NCBI GenBank assembly: GCA_010093605.1
Contig: MU004182.1
Location: 1,645,032 to 1,709,031, forward strand
Length of the DNA stretch: 64,000 bases
Source of the DNA: Lophium mytilinum
Lineage: Eukaryota; Ascomycota; Dothideomycetes; Mytilinidiales; Mytilinidiaceae
Direction: 5' to 3'
Positions within the stretch are counted from its first letter, which is position 1. The number at the start of each line of letters is the position of its first letter. This document shows positions 31,062 through 62,649 of the stretch, piece by piece. A program made the translations under genes and the position numbers. Below the pieces are notes generated by a model that was given only the letters and a program-made list of their open reading frames with translations, was not told the DNA's origin and did not search any database.

Positions 31062-31849
31062 GGGGCCTATTACGAGACCAGGTGTAATTTTTTCGGCGTG
31101 ATGGGTGTGAAAAAAGGATATGTCCTATCTGTGAAAAGTGGTTTGTCCTGAGATTTTACAAATCTGCATCTTATACCCGAGGAATTTCCATCGTCTTGTA
31201 CCTTCCTTTTTCTACCTATCTTAGCGAAATGGCATTGTGTCTTTGTTTGTTCTGCTGCAATTGATCTGCGTGTGAAGTTTAGTGACTAAATGGCTGCCAA
31301 ATCTTCCGTAGCACTCTACATGAGCCATGTCATCGCTACGTAGAAGACGAGCAAGCGTGTAAGAGGTCCAGCAACTACTCCATCCTCTACTCTACGAGCC
31401 CTTTACCCTAAGATCACCGTAGAATTAGTTAACACCTAAAGCCATCCGTATAGCTTGATTCTGCACGCTGCTGACATTCTAGACTCAGGAAAAATCTCGT
31501 AGACTCACGCAAACTGGCCAGACTTTTGCCACGTAGCCCTTCCGCATTTCTTTCGTTTCCATCAGTTTCTAGGCAATTCTCTTTGCTGCGAGCCCGTGGC
31601 TACCGACTTTCATTTTGTGGTTGACCAACAAAAAGGGGCATGGGGAAAAGGGGCGGGGCTCGTTACTCGCCCAACCGCGCTGACACCCCCAAAGATTCAT
31701 GGTTCAGAGGGTATGTGAGTCACAACCATATTCGCGACCGGACTACGTGGCAGACTAATGCTTGGCTCTCGATTTCGTATAAGAGGCTGCCCTCCCCCTC
31801 GACTTTCTGCGCAGCCTTCGGGCTTGCTAACCTGCTAATCATCTAGATG
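31062..31849. other. Intergenic, no gene seen
   Basis: 3' flank of RBR-A leading into the low-G tract. No coding sequence or repeat recognised. Confidence 0.5.
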
Positions 31850-32460
31850 CTAATACCTCCAGCTGATCTATCTGCCATATATCTACTATATAACATATAT
31901 CTACATCATCTAGAGATCATCTACTTACCATTTCTTTTGTTATTTCAGCCTATTCGGCTTGCTTCCATCTACTTGCTATCTCTCCTCGCGTTCGCGTGTT
32001 TTTCCGATATACGTGTCATCTATTTTTGCCATCTGCTTTTGCCATTTCTTTATGCCGTCTCCTTTCCTATTTTCGTTTTTATCTACTTTGCCACCTACTT
32101 GCCATCTATTTACCATCTTTACCATCTTTTCTCACTTACCCCCGTGGGGCGGAGGCGGCATCGTCCACCTGGATGGCCGTCACGGATGGGGGCGTTGGCT
32201 GGGGCCCCCATCTTTACCCTCATTTCTTTGCCATTTACAACCTCCATTTACTACGTGTCATCTACTATCAATTTCCCATACAAATGCCACCTATCTCATC
32301 TTTAACTATATATTTCCATTTAATGCCATTTACATCTGCTATTTACCGGTGCCATATATGCCATTTACCCCCGCTGGGCGGAGGCGGCACCATCCACTTG
32401 GATGGCCGTCACGGATGGGGTGCGTTGTTGGGGCCCCCATCGTAACCCATTTTCATTTTT
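31850..32460 (+). repeat. G-poor low-complexity tract carrying two divergent hairpin modules
   Basis: The plus strand is strongly depleted in G and repeats short words such as GCCATYT and ATCTACTT. Two GC-rich islands interrupt it at about 32131-32216 and 32367-32452; they are copies of each other, each preceded by TTACCCCC. Each has a hairpin equivalent to P1 of the main array (TCGTCC with GGATGG in one, CCATCC with GGATGG in the other) and one equivalent to P2 (GATGGGGGC with GCCCCCATC in the first, GATGGGG with CCCCATC in the second). Confidence 0.7.
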
Positions 32461-32750
32461 TCTTAGTGTGTGCGGGGGATTGTGGGATTTCGGTTAGGTT
32501 GATGAGGACGTGGCTAGAGTGAGGTCTTGGAGTGGATGGAGTTCCAGTCTTAGCATAGCAAATATCAAGCCCATTTCATTCTCAACGCTTATCTTTGTGC
32601 TCATTAATGTGATCTCCGCTATTAGTGTACCTTCTTGTGGTGCTTTGAGGATGCCACATCTCCAGCAAATGCGTCTGCTCGTCACTGCCCATACTTTGCC
32701 CAAGGACCTCAACAACACCTTTGAACACATCTTCGAAACACGCAGATTTG

Positions 32751-33041
32751 TCATCTTTCCCTCCATGGGACCCTCAAAGGCTCTTCTTTTGACGGCGACT
32801 GCATAAGTTTGAACACGCGAGACCCGTCCCACCAGGACTCCTTCCCACCATAAATTCCGCCAGCCTTCCTGACACTATTGAAGGCCATGTGTTCAGTGCC
32901 GACATATCCCGTGGTTAACCGCTCCAGCAAGAATCTGGTGGAATGTTCTCCTTCCACGCGCGGCCTGACGGGCTCGTTATTCACCTTCACTCGTTCAATA
33001 GCGGGCACAGGCCCGGGCGCCCGCCCAAATGGACCAGCCAT
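32751..33041 (-). CDS. Possible hypothetical protein or gene remnant
   Basis: A 96-codon frame starting MAGPFGRAPGPVP. Composition looks coding-like and few repeats overlap it, but I recognise no family. There is no supported splice to the open frame just downstream (32494-32832). It could be a fragment of a decayed gene. Confidence 0.25.
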   Translation of the reverse strand: MAGPFGRAPGPVPAIERVKVNNEPVRPRVEGEHSTRFLLERLTTGYVGTEHMAFNSVRKAGGIYGGKESWWDGSRVFKLMQSPSKEEPLRVPWRER

Positions 33042-33350
33042 ATAAAGTCTGCCTGCCCCGACGCCTTTCCTTCCTCCAACAACCTACAGTTTTTTCTCCT
33101 ACACAACCACATCACCACATCACCACCCTTCCTTCGTCGCGATCTGAGCAGAACCGGCTCCTCGACCACCTCGGTTCCACTAGGTCTTGCCTCCTCTTTC
33201 CGCCCACCACACAAGCCTGCTGTGTTATCCACCACCGCCTCGTTTCTGCGCCCTACTTGGGGCGCGACCCTGTACTCCTCCACCCGTCACAGAAGCCTCT
33301 TCGACTCCCACCTCCTCTTCCTATCTCTTACATTGCTCGTTCCCGGACTC

Positions 33351-35735
33351 GGTGGCGGCATTGCACAACCCATTAATTGGGCAATGCCACGGGATGTGGA
33401 GGCTGGGCCCATCTCTTCGACGGCTTCTCGAAGCTTCCATATTGTGGACATCCGTTCGCACCCGATTCACCGGCCTAAGATATCATGTCGGAGATATCGG
33501 GTCTCCACAAAGAACACGCACTCGACACACACTCGCCTTCGTAAGACCACCACCACACTCGCTTCGACTAATTCTTCTTCGGCGTCGTCTCCTCCAACAA
33601 ATCTCTTCGCCTACTCGCCTATAATCTTCCGGGCCTGGTGGGGGGCACCTTACACCCATTGATCGGGGGTGCCCAAGCAAGGAGAGGTTGGCGGCCTTGC
33701 TACCTACTTCGCCTCTTCGGAGTGCAGGTAGGATGCCATTTCGAAGGCATAGATCTTTTCAATTCTCTTCCACCGTTGGAGGGTTCATCCCATCGTGCCC
33801 ACCGCTTCCACCGCTTCCACTACCAAATTGCTCCGACGCGCCACCGCTACCACCTCCTCGCTCTTCGCGACTATCTGCCATACCATTACCGCTGGACCTG
33901 GTGGGGGGCACCTCATACCCATTGATTGGGGGTGCCCAAGCAAGGAGAGGTTGGCGGCCTTGCTACTTACCTCGCACTCCTTGGAGTGCAGGTAGGCGCC
34001 ATGTCGGAGGCGTTTCTTTTCGACTTCATTCACCCGCTAGAGAAGTTGACCTACCTATTCTCCGTTCTTACTTACATAGACTTCATCGCCGAACCAGTTT
34101 TGCAATACTGCTAGAGGGCTTAGCCCAGCAGACATACTTACACCAGCCCGTCTTTGTTCGTCGCCACCACCACCACCACTACCACCACCACCTCCTCCTC
34201 CTCCTCTCTTCTTCTACGATAGAGCAAGACTTCCGGACTCGGTGGGAGCATCCCATTACACCCATAAATTGGGGGATGCTGGGAAGGAGAGGTTGGCGGC
34301 CTTCCCACCTACCTTGCCGACAGGTAGAGCGCCATTTCAGAGTTGCATATACAGTTCGTTTCCAACAGAGTTTTTCTTCCCATCGATAATCCAAGGCCTC
34401 CGAATCGGGTGGAGGCAGTCCTTACCCGTTGATAGGGGACTGCCAGTAATGGGAGGCTGGGCCCATCTCATCGCCAGCCCAAGGTATCATGTCGAAGATG
34501 CCAGGCCTCCGGACCGTGGACCTGGTGGAGGCAGTTCGTCCCCGTCAGTGGGAATTGCCAGTGATGGGAGGTTGGGCCCGTCTCATCGCCGGCCCAAGGT
34601 ATCATATCGAAAGTACTAGGCCTCTGGACCGTGGACCCGGTGGGAGGCTTCTGCTACCCATTAATTGGGGAAGCCTGAGACGGGGAGGTTGCCCCGATCT
34701 CACCTACCTTCACGACTGGTAGGGCGCCATTTCGGAGGTGCGACAGAGCCCTTGCTTTTCTCGACAGCCTAAGATGCCATTTCGGAGACATCAGGCCTCC
34801 GAACCGCTGACCCGGTGGGAGGCTTCTGATACCCATCAATCGGGGGAGCCTGAGACGGGGAGGTTGGGCCCCGATCTCACCTACCTTCACGACTGGTAGT
34901 GCGCCATTTCGGAGGCCCGACGGAATTGTTCTGTTTATCGACGGCCCAACATGTCATTTCGGAAACATCAGGCTTCCACCCGTGGATGGCTTTCTGTAAT
35001 ACCCGCGAAACACCTCATTTCGGAGATGGTGACGCTAATCTGGTGGAGGCATTCCGCACCCATTAATAGGGGGATGCCAGAGATGGGAGGCTGGGCCCGT
35101 TTCATCTGTCTTCCTGACTGGTAAATCGCCATCTCAAAGGCGTCGCATAGACTCGTTTCCATTTAATGGCCTAAAATGTCATATCAGAGACATCAGGCTT
35201 TCGTACCATGGACCCGTATCAACCTCCGTCGCTCGCTCAATCTGGTGGAGGTATCTCAGACCCGTTGATAGGGAGATACCAGGGATGGGAGGTTGGGCCC
35301 ATCTCATCGACGGCCCCCGAGGCCTCTGTACCTGGACCTGGAACGTGGAAATCGTGTTCGCACGCCTAATCTGGTGGAGGTGTCTCGAACCCGTTAATAG
35401 GGAGATACCACGAGTGGGAGGTTGGGCCCATCTCATCGCCGGCCCCTAGGCCTCCGGATCCGGACTGTGAAAATCGTGGCCTAATCTGGTGGAGGTATCC
35501 CAAGCCCGGCAATAGGAAGATACCATGAGATGGGAGGGCTGGGCCCATCTCATCGACGGCCCCCGAGGCTTCCGGACTTGGACCTGGAAATCGCGTTCGC
35601 ACGCCCAATCTGGTGGAGGTATTCCGAACCCATTAATGAAGGGGGATACCAAAGATGGGAGGCTGGGCCCATCTCCGGACCGTAGACTCTGTCTGCACAC
35701 GACACCGGCCCAAGGTATCATATCGGAGATACCAG
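33351..35735 (+). repeat. Array of 13 covarying hairpin modules (candidate structured RNA)
   Basis: Each module has hairpin P1 with loop core ACCC(A/G)TTRAT; P2 with loop AGGYTGG; and usually P3 with loop ATNTCGGA. P1 copies (start-end, 5' arm): 33357-33388 GGCATTGC; 33643-33674 and 33906-33937 GGGCACC; 34247-34280 AGCATCCC; 34414-34444 GGCAGTCC; 34530-34559 GGCAGTTC; 34645-34676 and 34820-34851 AGGCTTC; 35048-35078 GGCATTCC; 35250-35280 GGTATCTC; 35379-35409 GGTGTCTC; 35494-35524 GGTATC; 35618-35650 GGTATTCC. In each the 3' arm changes to stay complementary, with five single G-T pairs. P3 examples: 33479-33498 GATATC/GATATC; 33733-33750 ATGCC/GGCAT; 34483-34502 GGTATC/GATGCC; 35714-35733 GGTATC/GATACC. 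A GCCTCC/GGAGGC pair often bridges modules. Middle modules are longer, with an extra CTACC/GGTAG stem and a second P3. No coding frame explains this. Confidence 0.85.
34160..34206. repeat. CAC/CTC trinucleotide tract
   Basis: A simple run of CAC then CTC triplets inside the array, between the third and fourth P1 hairpins. It has no relation to the hairpin modules. Confidence 0.8.
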
Positions 35736-36478: not shown

Positions 36479-37711
36479 CTAGCTTGAATACCAAGCTAGC
36501 GTTTCGTTAAGGAGTTCTTCGTTGTAGCCGTCGATGTATTCGTCGTATTCGTCGGGTTCCACGGCTGCATGTGGAGGCTCAGGATCGTGCAACGGTCGAT
36601 AGTGCTTACAAGATTGGTCATGGAAATGGTTGCCATTCTGAATGATGGGGGTCCAGCTCGTCCGACATAGCCAGCAGAACTGGTGGCCGCATCGAGTGCC
36701 TGAATTGATAGAGTGTTAGATCAGTAAGTAGCATCTTATCTGTAAGAGACGGCTTACATGTCATGTGGTCGCAACCATTGTTCTTCTGGATCCTCCAACC
36801 ACAGCCTTTCCCCGGACACTCTTTTGAGATTTCCCGGATAAGGTTGACCGAGTCCTGCTCTTGTTTCTTGAGTTGCGCAGCTTCAAGCTCTGCAGCCTTT
36901 GCGGCGGCTTCTGCGGCCTCTTCCTCCAGTCGCTTCTTCTCCGTCGCTTCAGCCTCTCTAGCAGCCTTTTCGGCAAGCATTTCTGCCACTGCAGCAGCTT
37001 TCTCGGCACTTTTTGCCTGCCTCTCCAATTTTGCCTTCTTCTTGATGGCAAACTGCTCGCAAGTCAAGTTTCTGTGCCAGGGGGCGTTGCAAACAACGCA
37101 GTACTTCGCTCTGCACGATTTGCACGTGAAGATTGGCTCTGCTACTCCCGCTTCATGGAAGTGTCCACCTCGGCATCTAGCCTTTGGGCATGGAATGAAC
37201 GATTCCATTGAACGTACGGCTTGGAAGGTTACCAAATCATCATACCTGCTGCAATTAGCATTCAACAGCGTATATTATGGGGCTGGTAATCTTACCGGGA
37301 GAATGTTTCCTTGGTACTGTGTGCCTTTACATCGGTGTGACTGAGGACCTCCGAACAGTCACTATGCGGGCAAAAAATCTTGGTGATATTGTCGTCGACT
37401 TGAGAGGTAATGGTTTGCTCAATGCAGCCGCGGCAGATCGTTTGATTGTGCTCGCAGCTCGCTGTGGTTTTGGTGGGGAATGCATCGGCAGCCTTTTCGT
37501 CGAGACATACCTCGCACTCAATGAGAGCAGAAGTGGAGACTCCCGTGTAGATACCCGTAGACTGCGTCGGGATTTTGAGATTTCTCTCGGCAAGTGAGGC
37601 CTCTTCTGCCTTTCTCTTCCTCGAGCCATCCATTATTTTGTTGCGGAGCGGAGGTCTCCAGGGAGCTTGTCTAGTCAAATTCGAATGCTGTAGTCCTTCT
37701 GGGGAATGCAT
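36479..37711 (-). CDS. RBR-type E3 ubiquitin ligase with coiled coil (RBR-B)
   Basis: Model: exons 37711-37296, 37245-36758 and 36699-36479, 374 aa; an ATG at 37633 (MDGSRKRKAEE) gives 348 aa and is the likelier start. RING1 is CEVCLDEKAADAFP with CEHNQTICRGC. The IBR follows (CPKARCRGGHFHE, CKSCRAKYCVVCNAPWH). RING2 is CPGKGCGWRIQKNNGCDHMTC then GHQFCWLC, with the likely catalytic Cys in GCDHMTC. An Ala/Glu/Lys-rich coiled coil of about 65 residues lies between IBR and RING2, an insertion not seen in RBR-A or RBR-C. Both introns interrupt the same codons as in the other two. No SIM or PIP motif is seen. Confidence 0.9.
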
Positions 37712-53989: not shown

Positions 53990-54940
53990 GAAAGTTACAC
54001 AGTTTTGCCGATTGCCTGCCACCGTCTGGAGTGTCCTACCTGCAGAGTTGAAGGTCAAGCGTAATGTAAAGCCCAGGACATTGTGAATCGGAGAACAGCC
54101 TTTTCCGATTGCTTGCTACCGTCTGGAGTGCCCTAGCTGTGTATTTGAGGGTCAACGGAAACGTAAAGCCAGGACATCGTAAATCAGACAATAGGACTGG
54201 AGGTGATCGAATAGGCGGGATTGAAGCTATTTTACTACCGCATGCCGCCGTTAGAGATGCCTCAACAAATCATCTGAAACCTAGACGCGATGTAAAGTCC
54301 AAGACATCGTGAATCGGAGAGGAGGACTAGAAGCGATCAGATAAGCGGAATTAAATCTACTTGACCACAGCATGCCGCTGTTAGAGGTGCCTTGATTAAT
54401 CATCTGAAGCCTAGACGCGATGTAAAGTCTTGGACATCATGATTCAGAGAGTAGGACTGGAGGTGATCAGATGAGCGGGAGACAGGATAGATGTCTGCCA
54501 CTCGTCTACCACTGTTTGGGGTGCCCAGAAAGGGTTTGAAATGTCTATGCACGATGTAAAGCGATACACAGCTGAGATCAGACTACCTCCTGGCTGACTG
54601 GCTACTGATCAGCGAGGCCACTCCTAGCAGCGGTGTCCAGCTTCCATAGTAGCAATCAAGCAAACCTAATATCACTGTACTACGGATTACAAGTCCATAC
54701 TCACATCCATACCAGCAACTCTTTTGGAAGCTATTTGCCACTGTCTGGAGTACCTCAGCTGGTACCTAGTCTGTCAGCCAAAACGTAGTCTGATTTAGAC
54801 TGCGTTGATCTTTACATCCTAGACTCTACACTTGACCACCGCATGCCACCGTTAGAAATGCCTTGACTAATCATATGAAGCACAAATGCGATGTAAAGTG
54901 TAGGATTACCTGAATCAGACGAGCGGGAGAAGATGAGGTG
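53990..54940. repeat. Degenerate tandem repeat array, about 130-bp units
   Basis: At least six diverged copies of the word GATGTAAAG, at about 54063, 54161, 54289, 54419, 54554 and 54890, most followed by ACAT and GAATC. A second word, TGCCRCYGTYWGRRRTGCCT, recurs at about 54017, 54116, 54243, 54372, 54508, 54737 and 54843. Spacing is roughly 97-135 bp. Some copies form a short hairpin with loop AAAGYCYRGG: AATGT/ACATT at 54063-54082, CGATGT/ACATCG at 54288-54309, GATGT/ACATC at 54419-54438. Neither strand has a coding frame through the array. Confidence 0.75.
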
Positions 54941-61399: not shown

Positions 61400-61491
61400 G
61401 CGAGCGTAGTCTAGTGGTTATGATGTCTGCTTTACAGGTCACGTGTCCTTTGAAGCGCAGAAGGTCGGGAGTTCGATCCTCCCCGCTCGTA
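61400..61491 (+). tRNA. tRNA-Val(UAC) with a 19-nt intron
   Basis: Acceptor arm 61400-61406 pairs with 61484-61490 (first pair G-T), discriminator A at 61491. The D arm lies at about 61409-61424. The anticodon stem TCTGC/GCAGA encloses TT, anticodon TAC (61433-61435) and A, followed by an intron at 61437-61455 in the canonical position, between nucleotides 37 and 38. The T arm is GGGAG, loop TTCGATC, CTCCC. Five Ts at 61493-61497 form a Pol III terminator. A and B boxes are recognisable (TAGTCTAGTGG and GTTCGATCC). Confidence 0.93.
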
Positions 61492-62649
61492 CTTTTTGTT
61501 TTGAGGATGTATAACTCTAGAAGTTCTCTTTTGTGGTGGTAAGTGTGCACGGGAACCTGTGTATAGAACTTGAGGAAGCTTTTTAGGCTTCCGAAGGGCG
61601 TAGTGTATAAGATAGAGCAATACGTAAGTAGGTATCTCGAGATAGTGCAAGATAAATTAGAACCTTTTGATATAGGGAATTGAAGTTCTGGATCCTTAGT
61701 AAGAATTCATTCTCGATGTGTTCGCTCTGTTCTAGAGTTTTAATCGAAAGTGTCATTCAACAACATGCCAAAATCAACTCCAAGTTGCACGGACTGGCTC
61801 ACGTTCATACATCTCAACACCTCATAAAATTCCCCCAATTCCAGTCTAATTTAGCTGGCCACAGATCTTACATCTTGATTTAATCGTAAGACTTCTACAC
61901 TGGGCATTGTTAGAAGCTAGAGGCCCGAAGTCGTAACCTCTTTCATACCCTTTTGCCGCGGGGTCGAAATCGCGGACTGGCTCCTCTTTATGCACATCAA
62001 CCGTGGTTCAAAAATCTCATTTCTCTAGGTCCGTTTAAAAGTGTCGTGCAGAGATCTGCCAAAGACAATTGTAAATTGCATGGAATGGCTCATGTTGGTG
62101 CCTCTTAACACACTATGACTTGGATAAACTCCTATGTCATGATTCAGAGGGGCGTAGCGTCTATTCGTAAGAGCCTGCTGGATCATGCCTCGAGGGCGAT
62201 TGAAAGCGAGGGACGGCAGATTGGAACATATCTGGAACGAAAGTGCTTTAGTATAAAGAATACGGACTCCCGTTTACGCTTCTCGTTGTTAGCCAGAAAG
62301 CGTCTCTCATCACAGGTTCCTAGATCTGGGATCCAATAACCGGTGTAGAAGAGGGCTGTGATAAAGGACAAAAGACAGAAAGAAGAAGAATGAAGGGGAG
62401 TATCGTATGCATATCTCATCGTAGCCGCACGTCTATAGTAGTCACCCATACCCAAGCAGCAGCCATGACCCTGCTCACCGACCCATCCAGCCCCAAGCGT
62501 TCCCAATTACTTCCACCCGAGCGGAGCGGACTCAAGCTGTCAAATGCTCTGTACGTCACTAGCACCGCGACTCAGCTCTAGAACACCATCCTGAGTCGAG
62601 GTAAGGATGGTATTCTAGGATCAATCTATCGCCTCCAGCCGCCCCCAGC
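61492..62649. repeat. Intergenic with a two-copy degenerate direct repeat
   Basis: After the tRNA terminator the interval has two diverged copies of a segment of about 75 bp, at about 61747-61825 and 62038-62115. They share AAGTGTC, TGCCAAA and the word TGGCTCA(C/T)GTT. I see no gene. Confidence 0.5.

Follow-up and report, generated by a model that had tools for sequence, protein, structure and literature searches.

A tandem array of hairpin modules in Lophium mytilinum is a probable structured RNA locus, with relatives in plan close by and on a second contig

What kind of element changes the sequence of its stems from copy to copy and still keeps them paired? This question is raised by a tandem array of hairpins in the dothideomycete Lophium mytilinum (order Mytilinidiales). 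The window, i.e. the whole 64 kb stretch of DNA that was analysed, corresponds to G000:C2:1645032-1709031 in a genome of 43.2 Mb on 24 contigs. An earlier note had described thirteen hairpins (P1) with 11 distinct 5' arms, opposite arms that change along with them and a conserved loop core, and had read them as a structure under selection that it could not match to a known RNA or repeat family. The array is probably a structured RNA locus, seen here in this one fungus; similar loci lie close by and on a second contig (Table 1).

Table 1. Features of the array, of the type B unit upstream of it and of the second type B locus; TATA boxes were read in the sequence and their function is putative.
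Feature	Position	Strand	Remarks
Motif GGGCTCGTTACTCGCC	31656..31671	+	Upstream of type B unit
TATAAG	31778..31783	+	Possible TATA box of type B unit
Type B unit	31830-32480		Pyrimidine-rich, two modules, own TATA-like site, just upstream of array
Type B copy 1	32138..32228	+	BLAST relatives on C12; R2 103.1 bits
Type B copy 2	32367..32457	+	BLAST relatives on C12; R2 109 bits
Motif GGGCTCGTTATTCACC	32970..32985	+	Upstream of array
TATAAA	33041..33046	+	Possible TATA box of array
Pyrimidine-rich stretch	33075..33345	+	Before array, 69% C+T, possible leader
Module M1	33357..33415	+	P1 33357-33388, P2 33391-33415
Module M2	33643..33701	+	P1 33643-33674, P2 33676-33701
Module M3	33906..33964	+	P1 33906-33937, P2 33939-33964
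Module M4	34247..34306	+	P1 34247-34280, P2 34281-34306
Module M5	34414..34469	+	P1 34414-34444, P2 34446-34469
Module M6	34530..34584	+	P1 34530-34559, P2 34561-34584
Module M7	34645..34701	+	P1 34645-34676, P2 34677-34701
Module M8	34820..34878	+	P1 34820-34851, P2 34852-34878
Module M9	35048..35103	+	P1 35048-35078, P2 35080-35103
Module M10	35250..35305	+	P1 35250-35280, P2 35282-35305
Module M11	35379..35434	+	P1 35379-35409, P2 35411-35434
Module M12	35494..35551	+	P1 35494-35524, P2 35527-35551
Module M13	35618..35675	+	P1 35618-35650, P2 35652-35675
First P4 hairpin	33479..33498	+	Loop AUNUCRRA
P4 loop starts 1-7	33485, 33738, 34001, 34334, 34489, 34604, 34729	+	
P4 loop starts 8-14	34779, 34906, 34956, 35017, 35131, 35181, 35720	+	
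Last P4 hairpin	35714..35733	+	Within GGCC/GGCC outer stem (outer stem by eye)
Second type B locus	G000:C12, L031:4294-5012	-	Four modules, CCATCTAC-rich linkers

Both counts of the earlier note were correct: thirteen P1 hairpins lie at 33357-35650 on the plus strand, and their 7-nt 5' arms are of 11 distinct kinds. All follow a plan of 7 base pairs, a 5'-side bulge of 4-7 nt, a CCC/GGG triplet and a loop of the RUURAUN type, somewhat variable in length; all three pairs of the triplet are formed in 12 of 13 modules. In the lower stem, 90 of the 91 positions pair (85 Watson-Crick and five G-U pairs, the exception being an A-C mismatch), whereas permutation of the 3' arms among modules gave a mean of 63.9 paired positions and a maximum of 84 in 100,000 shuffles. 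The opposite arm thus indeed changes along with the 5' arm. Six of the seven stem positions are variable, and at each of these both sides have changed together once or more. Exact copies of the loop core ACCC(A/G)TTRAT were found in nine modules, but modules 4, 6, 8 and 12 deviate from it, a small correction to the earlier description. As to self-kissing of P1 loops, nine of thirteen are self-complementary with G-U permitted, as judged by eye and without a control.

Changes were also counted on an NJ tree, from the building of which the P1 lower stem had been left out. At a cost of 1.5 for a double change, 18 both-sided changes were obtained against a maximum of 9 in 200 shuffles; at a cost of 2.01, the count was 4 against a shuffled maximum of 3. 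A tree-based null of our own implementation, akin in idea to R-scape, was applied to 29 columns (406 pairs); the columns tested also served to build its tree, and its power is limited by 13 copies and 47 substitutions. Ranks 1 to 4 were all taken by proposed pairs (E = 0.022, 0.06, 0.12 and 0.31), a single one of which lies under E 0.05, and rank 5 by a pair outside the proposed structure.

A second hairpin, P2, follows P1 in all thirteen modules, with 96 of 102 hand-aligned positions paired, a count without a shuffle control of its own. Its arms are very unlike one another (AGCAAGG/CCUUGCU, GGGAAGG/CCUUCCC, GAGACGGGG/CCCCGAUCUC), around a loop of about AGGYUGGG. In an alignment of P1 and P2 fitted by R1, the model built from the 13 modules, 84.6% of the cells pair and both-sided change occurs in 26 cells, against 9.6 after shuffling and 2-5 for slid structures; this alignment is biased towards the model, and some of its stems are off by a column. 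A third hairpin, P4, was present in 14 copies spread over 10 of the 13 modules, one to three in each. Thirteen of them were picked up by scanning the whole window, and the fourteenth was placed by hand; all 13 plus-strand matches of the scan lie inside the array, and its two minus-strand matches both lie outside. When only the inner 5 bp of P4 are counted, 62 of 70 positions pair, against at most 59 in 20,000 shuffles; over 6 bp, 69 of 84 positions pair (shuffle maximum 68). By eye, seven P4 copies are nested in an outer stem built on a GCC/GGC core, and in M10-M12 this outer stem is retained with a short loop as cap. The pattern of P4 plus outer stem matched eight sites, five in the array and three elsewhere, the control matching none. 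YCAU stands at the edge of the P4 loop in all 14 copies.

Because compensatory change in P1 and P4 exceeds that of shuffled arms, and because P2 stems are varied yet paired, selection for structure is well supported, as the earlier note had proposed; the sample comprises 13 copies from one locus of one genome. Since the stems covary within a single locus, a deep species alignment is dispensable for arguing structure. To our knowledge, there are few examples in eukaryotes of long repeat-module RNAs that covary clearly. The near-duplicate modules M2/M3 and M7/M8 would be compatible with a functionless, decaying tandem repeat, whose stems arose from hairpin-prone replication or conversion. However, P1 pairing above all 100,000 arm shuffles, both-sided changes above all 200 shuffles at either cost, and stems that change while loops are kept make such a decay highly improbable. 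An assembly artefact is unlikely too, given the divergence among modules and the presence of a locus of similar architecture on another contig.

Open frames that run through the first part of the array reach 254 codons. A protein-coding tandem repeat was rejected since module lengths do not come in threes (e.g. 115, 116, 175) and a Pfam match was lacking: none of the eight frames crossing the array reached the Pfam cut-off. No protein relatives up to E 1 were found for one array frame (9 candidates) and one frame through the type B unit described below (39 candidates), a weak test as regards other fungi. With Rfam 15 at curated thresholds, the tRNA at 61400 was the only match in the whole window; between 32.9 and 36.1 kb the best score was that of RFPL3-AS1_1, with 16 bits against a threshold of 70. 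The array thus matches no known RNA family of Rfam 15, in agreement with the earlier note. R1 recovered all 13 modules in the 64 kb at 53.8-78.2 bits, with no further match up to E 1. In the genome, exact matches of ACCCRTTRATNGGG (8 of 8) and GGGAGGYTGGGCCC (7 of 7) all fell inside the array, and the array DNA matched only itself, save for a 36-bp match on contig C18 to a CCA/CCT-repeat stretch. Strongly diverged copies of the array module (type A) could be missed because the genome was searched by DNA and patterns. A transposable element was rejected, there being no dispersed copies in the genome, with type A at one locus and type B at two. A pattern scan of viral contigs for the modules gave no matches, and the sole match among genome contigs, a lone 14-bit R1 match on a Prevotella contig, was taken as chance.

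Compact hairpin pairs, repeated in one direction, may also bring to mind a precursor transcript that is cut into many small RNAs, at least one per module, in the manner of a snoRNA or small-RNA cluster. We consider this unlikely. As delimited, P1, P2 and P4 measure 20-34 nt, which is short for Dicer, and Rfam gave no match. Guide RNAs conserve arms or boxes, whereas in the array the loops are less variable than the arms.

On which strand does the structure operate? Over P1, P2 and the five inner base pairs of P4, 17 G-U pairs on the plus strand (5, 7 and 5, respectively) stand against 7 A-C mismatches (1, 3 and 3), corresponding to a one-sided binomial probability of about 0.03 if positions are taken as independent. 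Since G-U pairs exceed A-C mismatches, RNA of the plus strand is favoured over a folded DNA strand, on modest evidence. Energies of single hairpins were better on the plus strand for 8 of 13 P1, 11 of 13 P2 and 4 of 14 P4. A DNA element acting through cruciforms or folded single strands, for instance an origin or a recombination site, would agree with the equal or better folding of most P4 hairpins on the minus strand and with window energies that are about equal for the two strands (−29.6 vs −28.8). The G-U excess, the upstream motif common to both units and the TATA-like sites speak against such an element, which we regard as very unlikely. Folding energy as a mark of the array was rejected: the mean z of 100-nt windows was −0.57, with 5 of 47 below −2, no different from coding DNA, where 5 of 57 windows of the helicase gene lay below that value.

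The array does not stand alone. The region 31600-32480 matches C12:327783-328567 (minus strand) at 69-74% identity; the C12 locus holds four type B modules and the window two, and the module is similar to type A. R2, a model built from the six type B copies, scores those six at 88-109 bits. The 21-base core of type B matches the genome exactly six times, always at the two type B loci, and with three mismatches five times elsewhere. Type A and type B modules may be kin, as their sequences suggest: of the weak R2 matches between 31.4 and 36.4 kb, 12 of 15 others on the plus strand overlap type A P1-P2, against 5 of 14 on the minus strand. Unfiltered, R1 scored the copies of type B at 5.4 and 3.4 bits, a minus-strand match of the same stretch reaching 6.7 bits, and R2 gave no match above 8.2 bits on type A. 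Within type B, covariation is weak: two both-sided pairs were counted, a number reached in 117 of 500 shuffles.

A 16-base motif precedes each of the two window units. In the genome, GGGCTCGTTAYTCNCC occurs exactly twice (31656 and 32970), with no third exact match and with one mismatch at four more sites. Beyond this motif and one stretch of 24 bases (75%), alignment between the regions upstream of the two units is poor. Together with the TATA-like sites, the shared motif forms a promoter-like context that would count in favour of a non-coding RNA gene. C+T amounts to 65-72% in type B leaders and linkers and to 52-68% in six of the twelve array junctions, the window mean being 50%. The two type B units hold 7 and 13 copies of CAU(C/U)UAC, against means of 0.2 and 0.3 in mono-nucleotide shuffles, and the array holds none. 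CCAU(C/U)U is densest in the type B units, at 21.5 and 14.8 per kb, followed by the array with 5.4 and the DNA downstream with 1.0; it is absent from the stretch before the array, and the idea of a shared motif therefore stops short of there. A CATCTAC-CATCTAC-CATCTA chain is uninformative since its seven genome matches (two at C12) compare with eight for the reversed control. YCAU-like sites suit KH-domain proteins, and it is a guess from sequence that P4 loops and type B units might draw the same kind of protein through a YCAU-like motif. Also common to both type B units is TGCTAAYRCCTCYAG (31848-31862 and L031:5259-5273, minus strand), which we take to resemble a fungal branch point and 3' splice site; because of this resemblance, type B transcripts may be spliced.

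What could such loci do? We give about an even chance to a cluster of long non-coding RNA genes that act as multivalent binding scaffolds. A long non-coding RNA, probably transcribed by Pol II, would run from about 33.1 to 35.9 kb on the plus strand and would fold into 13 modules, each with a bulged P1 and a P2, and with P4 in 10 of them. Since stems drift yet stay paired and loops change less, the loops of P1, P2 and P4 are likely the recognised surfaces. The module copy number suggests multivalent binding, i.e. a platform that might gather or titrate one or more RNA-binding proteins. The upstream unit and the C12 locus would have the same role, with fewer modules, of type B, and CCAUCUAC-rich linkers. 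We infer transcription, transcript ends, the kinship of the module types, protein binding and titration or scaffolding from this arrangement. More tentatively, the loci could represent a new class of large fungal RNA formed by module duplication, in which YCAU-like sites, shown in P4 loops and type B linkers, would assemble a multivalent ribonucleoprotein body. That this class would be defined by three hairpin families with conserved loops and by sister genes carrying a second module type is possible but equally tentative.

The A-repeat region of human XIST may be the closest working analogue, in likeness of plan and not by kinship. In the part of PMC10870365 that concerns it, this region is described as eight and a half repeats joined by linkers rich in U, whose modules are a protein platform in a long non-coding RNA. 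Both systems have multiple short folded modules, with linkers that are pyrimidine-rich here and U-rich there (PMC10870365, same part). The array, however, has three hairpin families and short late linkers, and it is fungal. An RNA of the very kind of the A-repeat, acting on chromatin or transcripts, with modules that recruit a silencing or RNA-processing factor nearby, would fit the pyrimidine-rich type B linkers when set beside the U-rich ones described in that part of PMC10870365. We nevertheless hold it to be distinctly unlikely: linkers between the later array modules are short, the likeness of linkers was judged from C and T jointly, and a target in cis is only hypothetical.

In the open PMC subset, no fungal RNA of this form was found described. 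As far as the portions of PMC8216456 used here go (Gao, Jones and Rivas 2021), the conserved intergenic structures 1-4 of fungi are likewise intergenic and supported by covariation, and three of them have an H box and one hairpin; those structures are single, whereas the array is tandem, the comparison being by description and Rfam. The 15 motifs that Li and Breaker 2017 (PMC5640933) present are structured RNA candidates from fungi as well, but according to the portions used they are single motifs and many are linked to particular mRNAs, again compared by description and Rfam; the main text contains no words starting with 'tandem' or 'repeat'. Module number can be compared naturally across the type B loci, and with a named culture-collection strain this ascomycete could serve for studying module number in an RNA scaffold.

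Around these loci, Pfam gave no match for any of seven frames from the region of 29.5 to 33.7 kb. An IBR-domain open frame lies downstream of the array (36618-37265, minus strand), and the window further encodes a UvrD/Srs2-like helicase with 100% identity, over 97% of the query, to a Lophium mytilinum protein and 89% identity to a Mytilinidion resinicola protein; Glonium and Lepidopterella have relatives of the helicase as well. Upstream of the helicase frame, a tandem repeat with a 130-bp unit in 2.4 copies occupies 54163-54478. The tRNA gene at 61400-61492 measures 93 nt against a model of 71 positions, its anticodon call is ambiguous, and its extra length is perhaps due to an intron inside.
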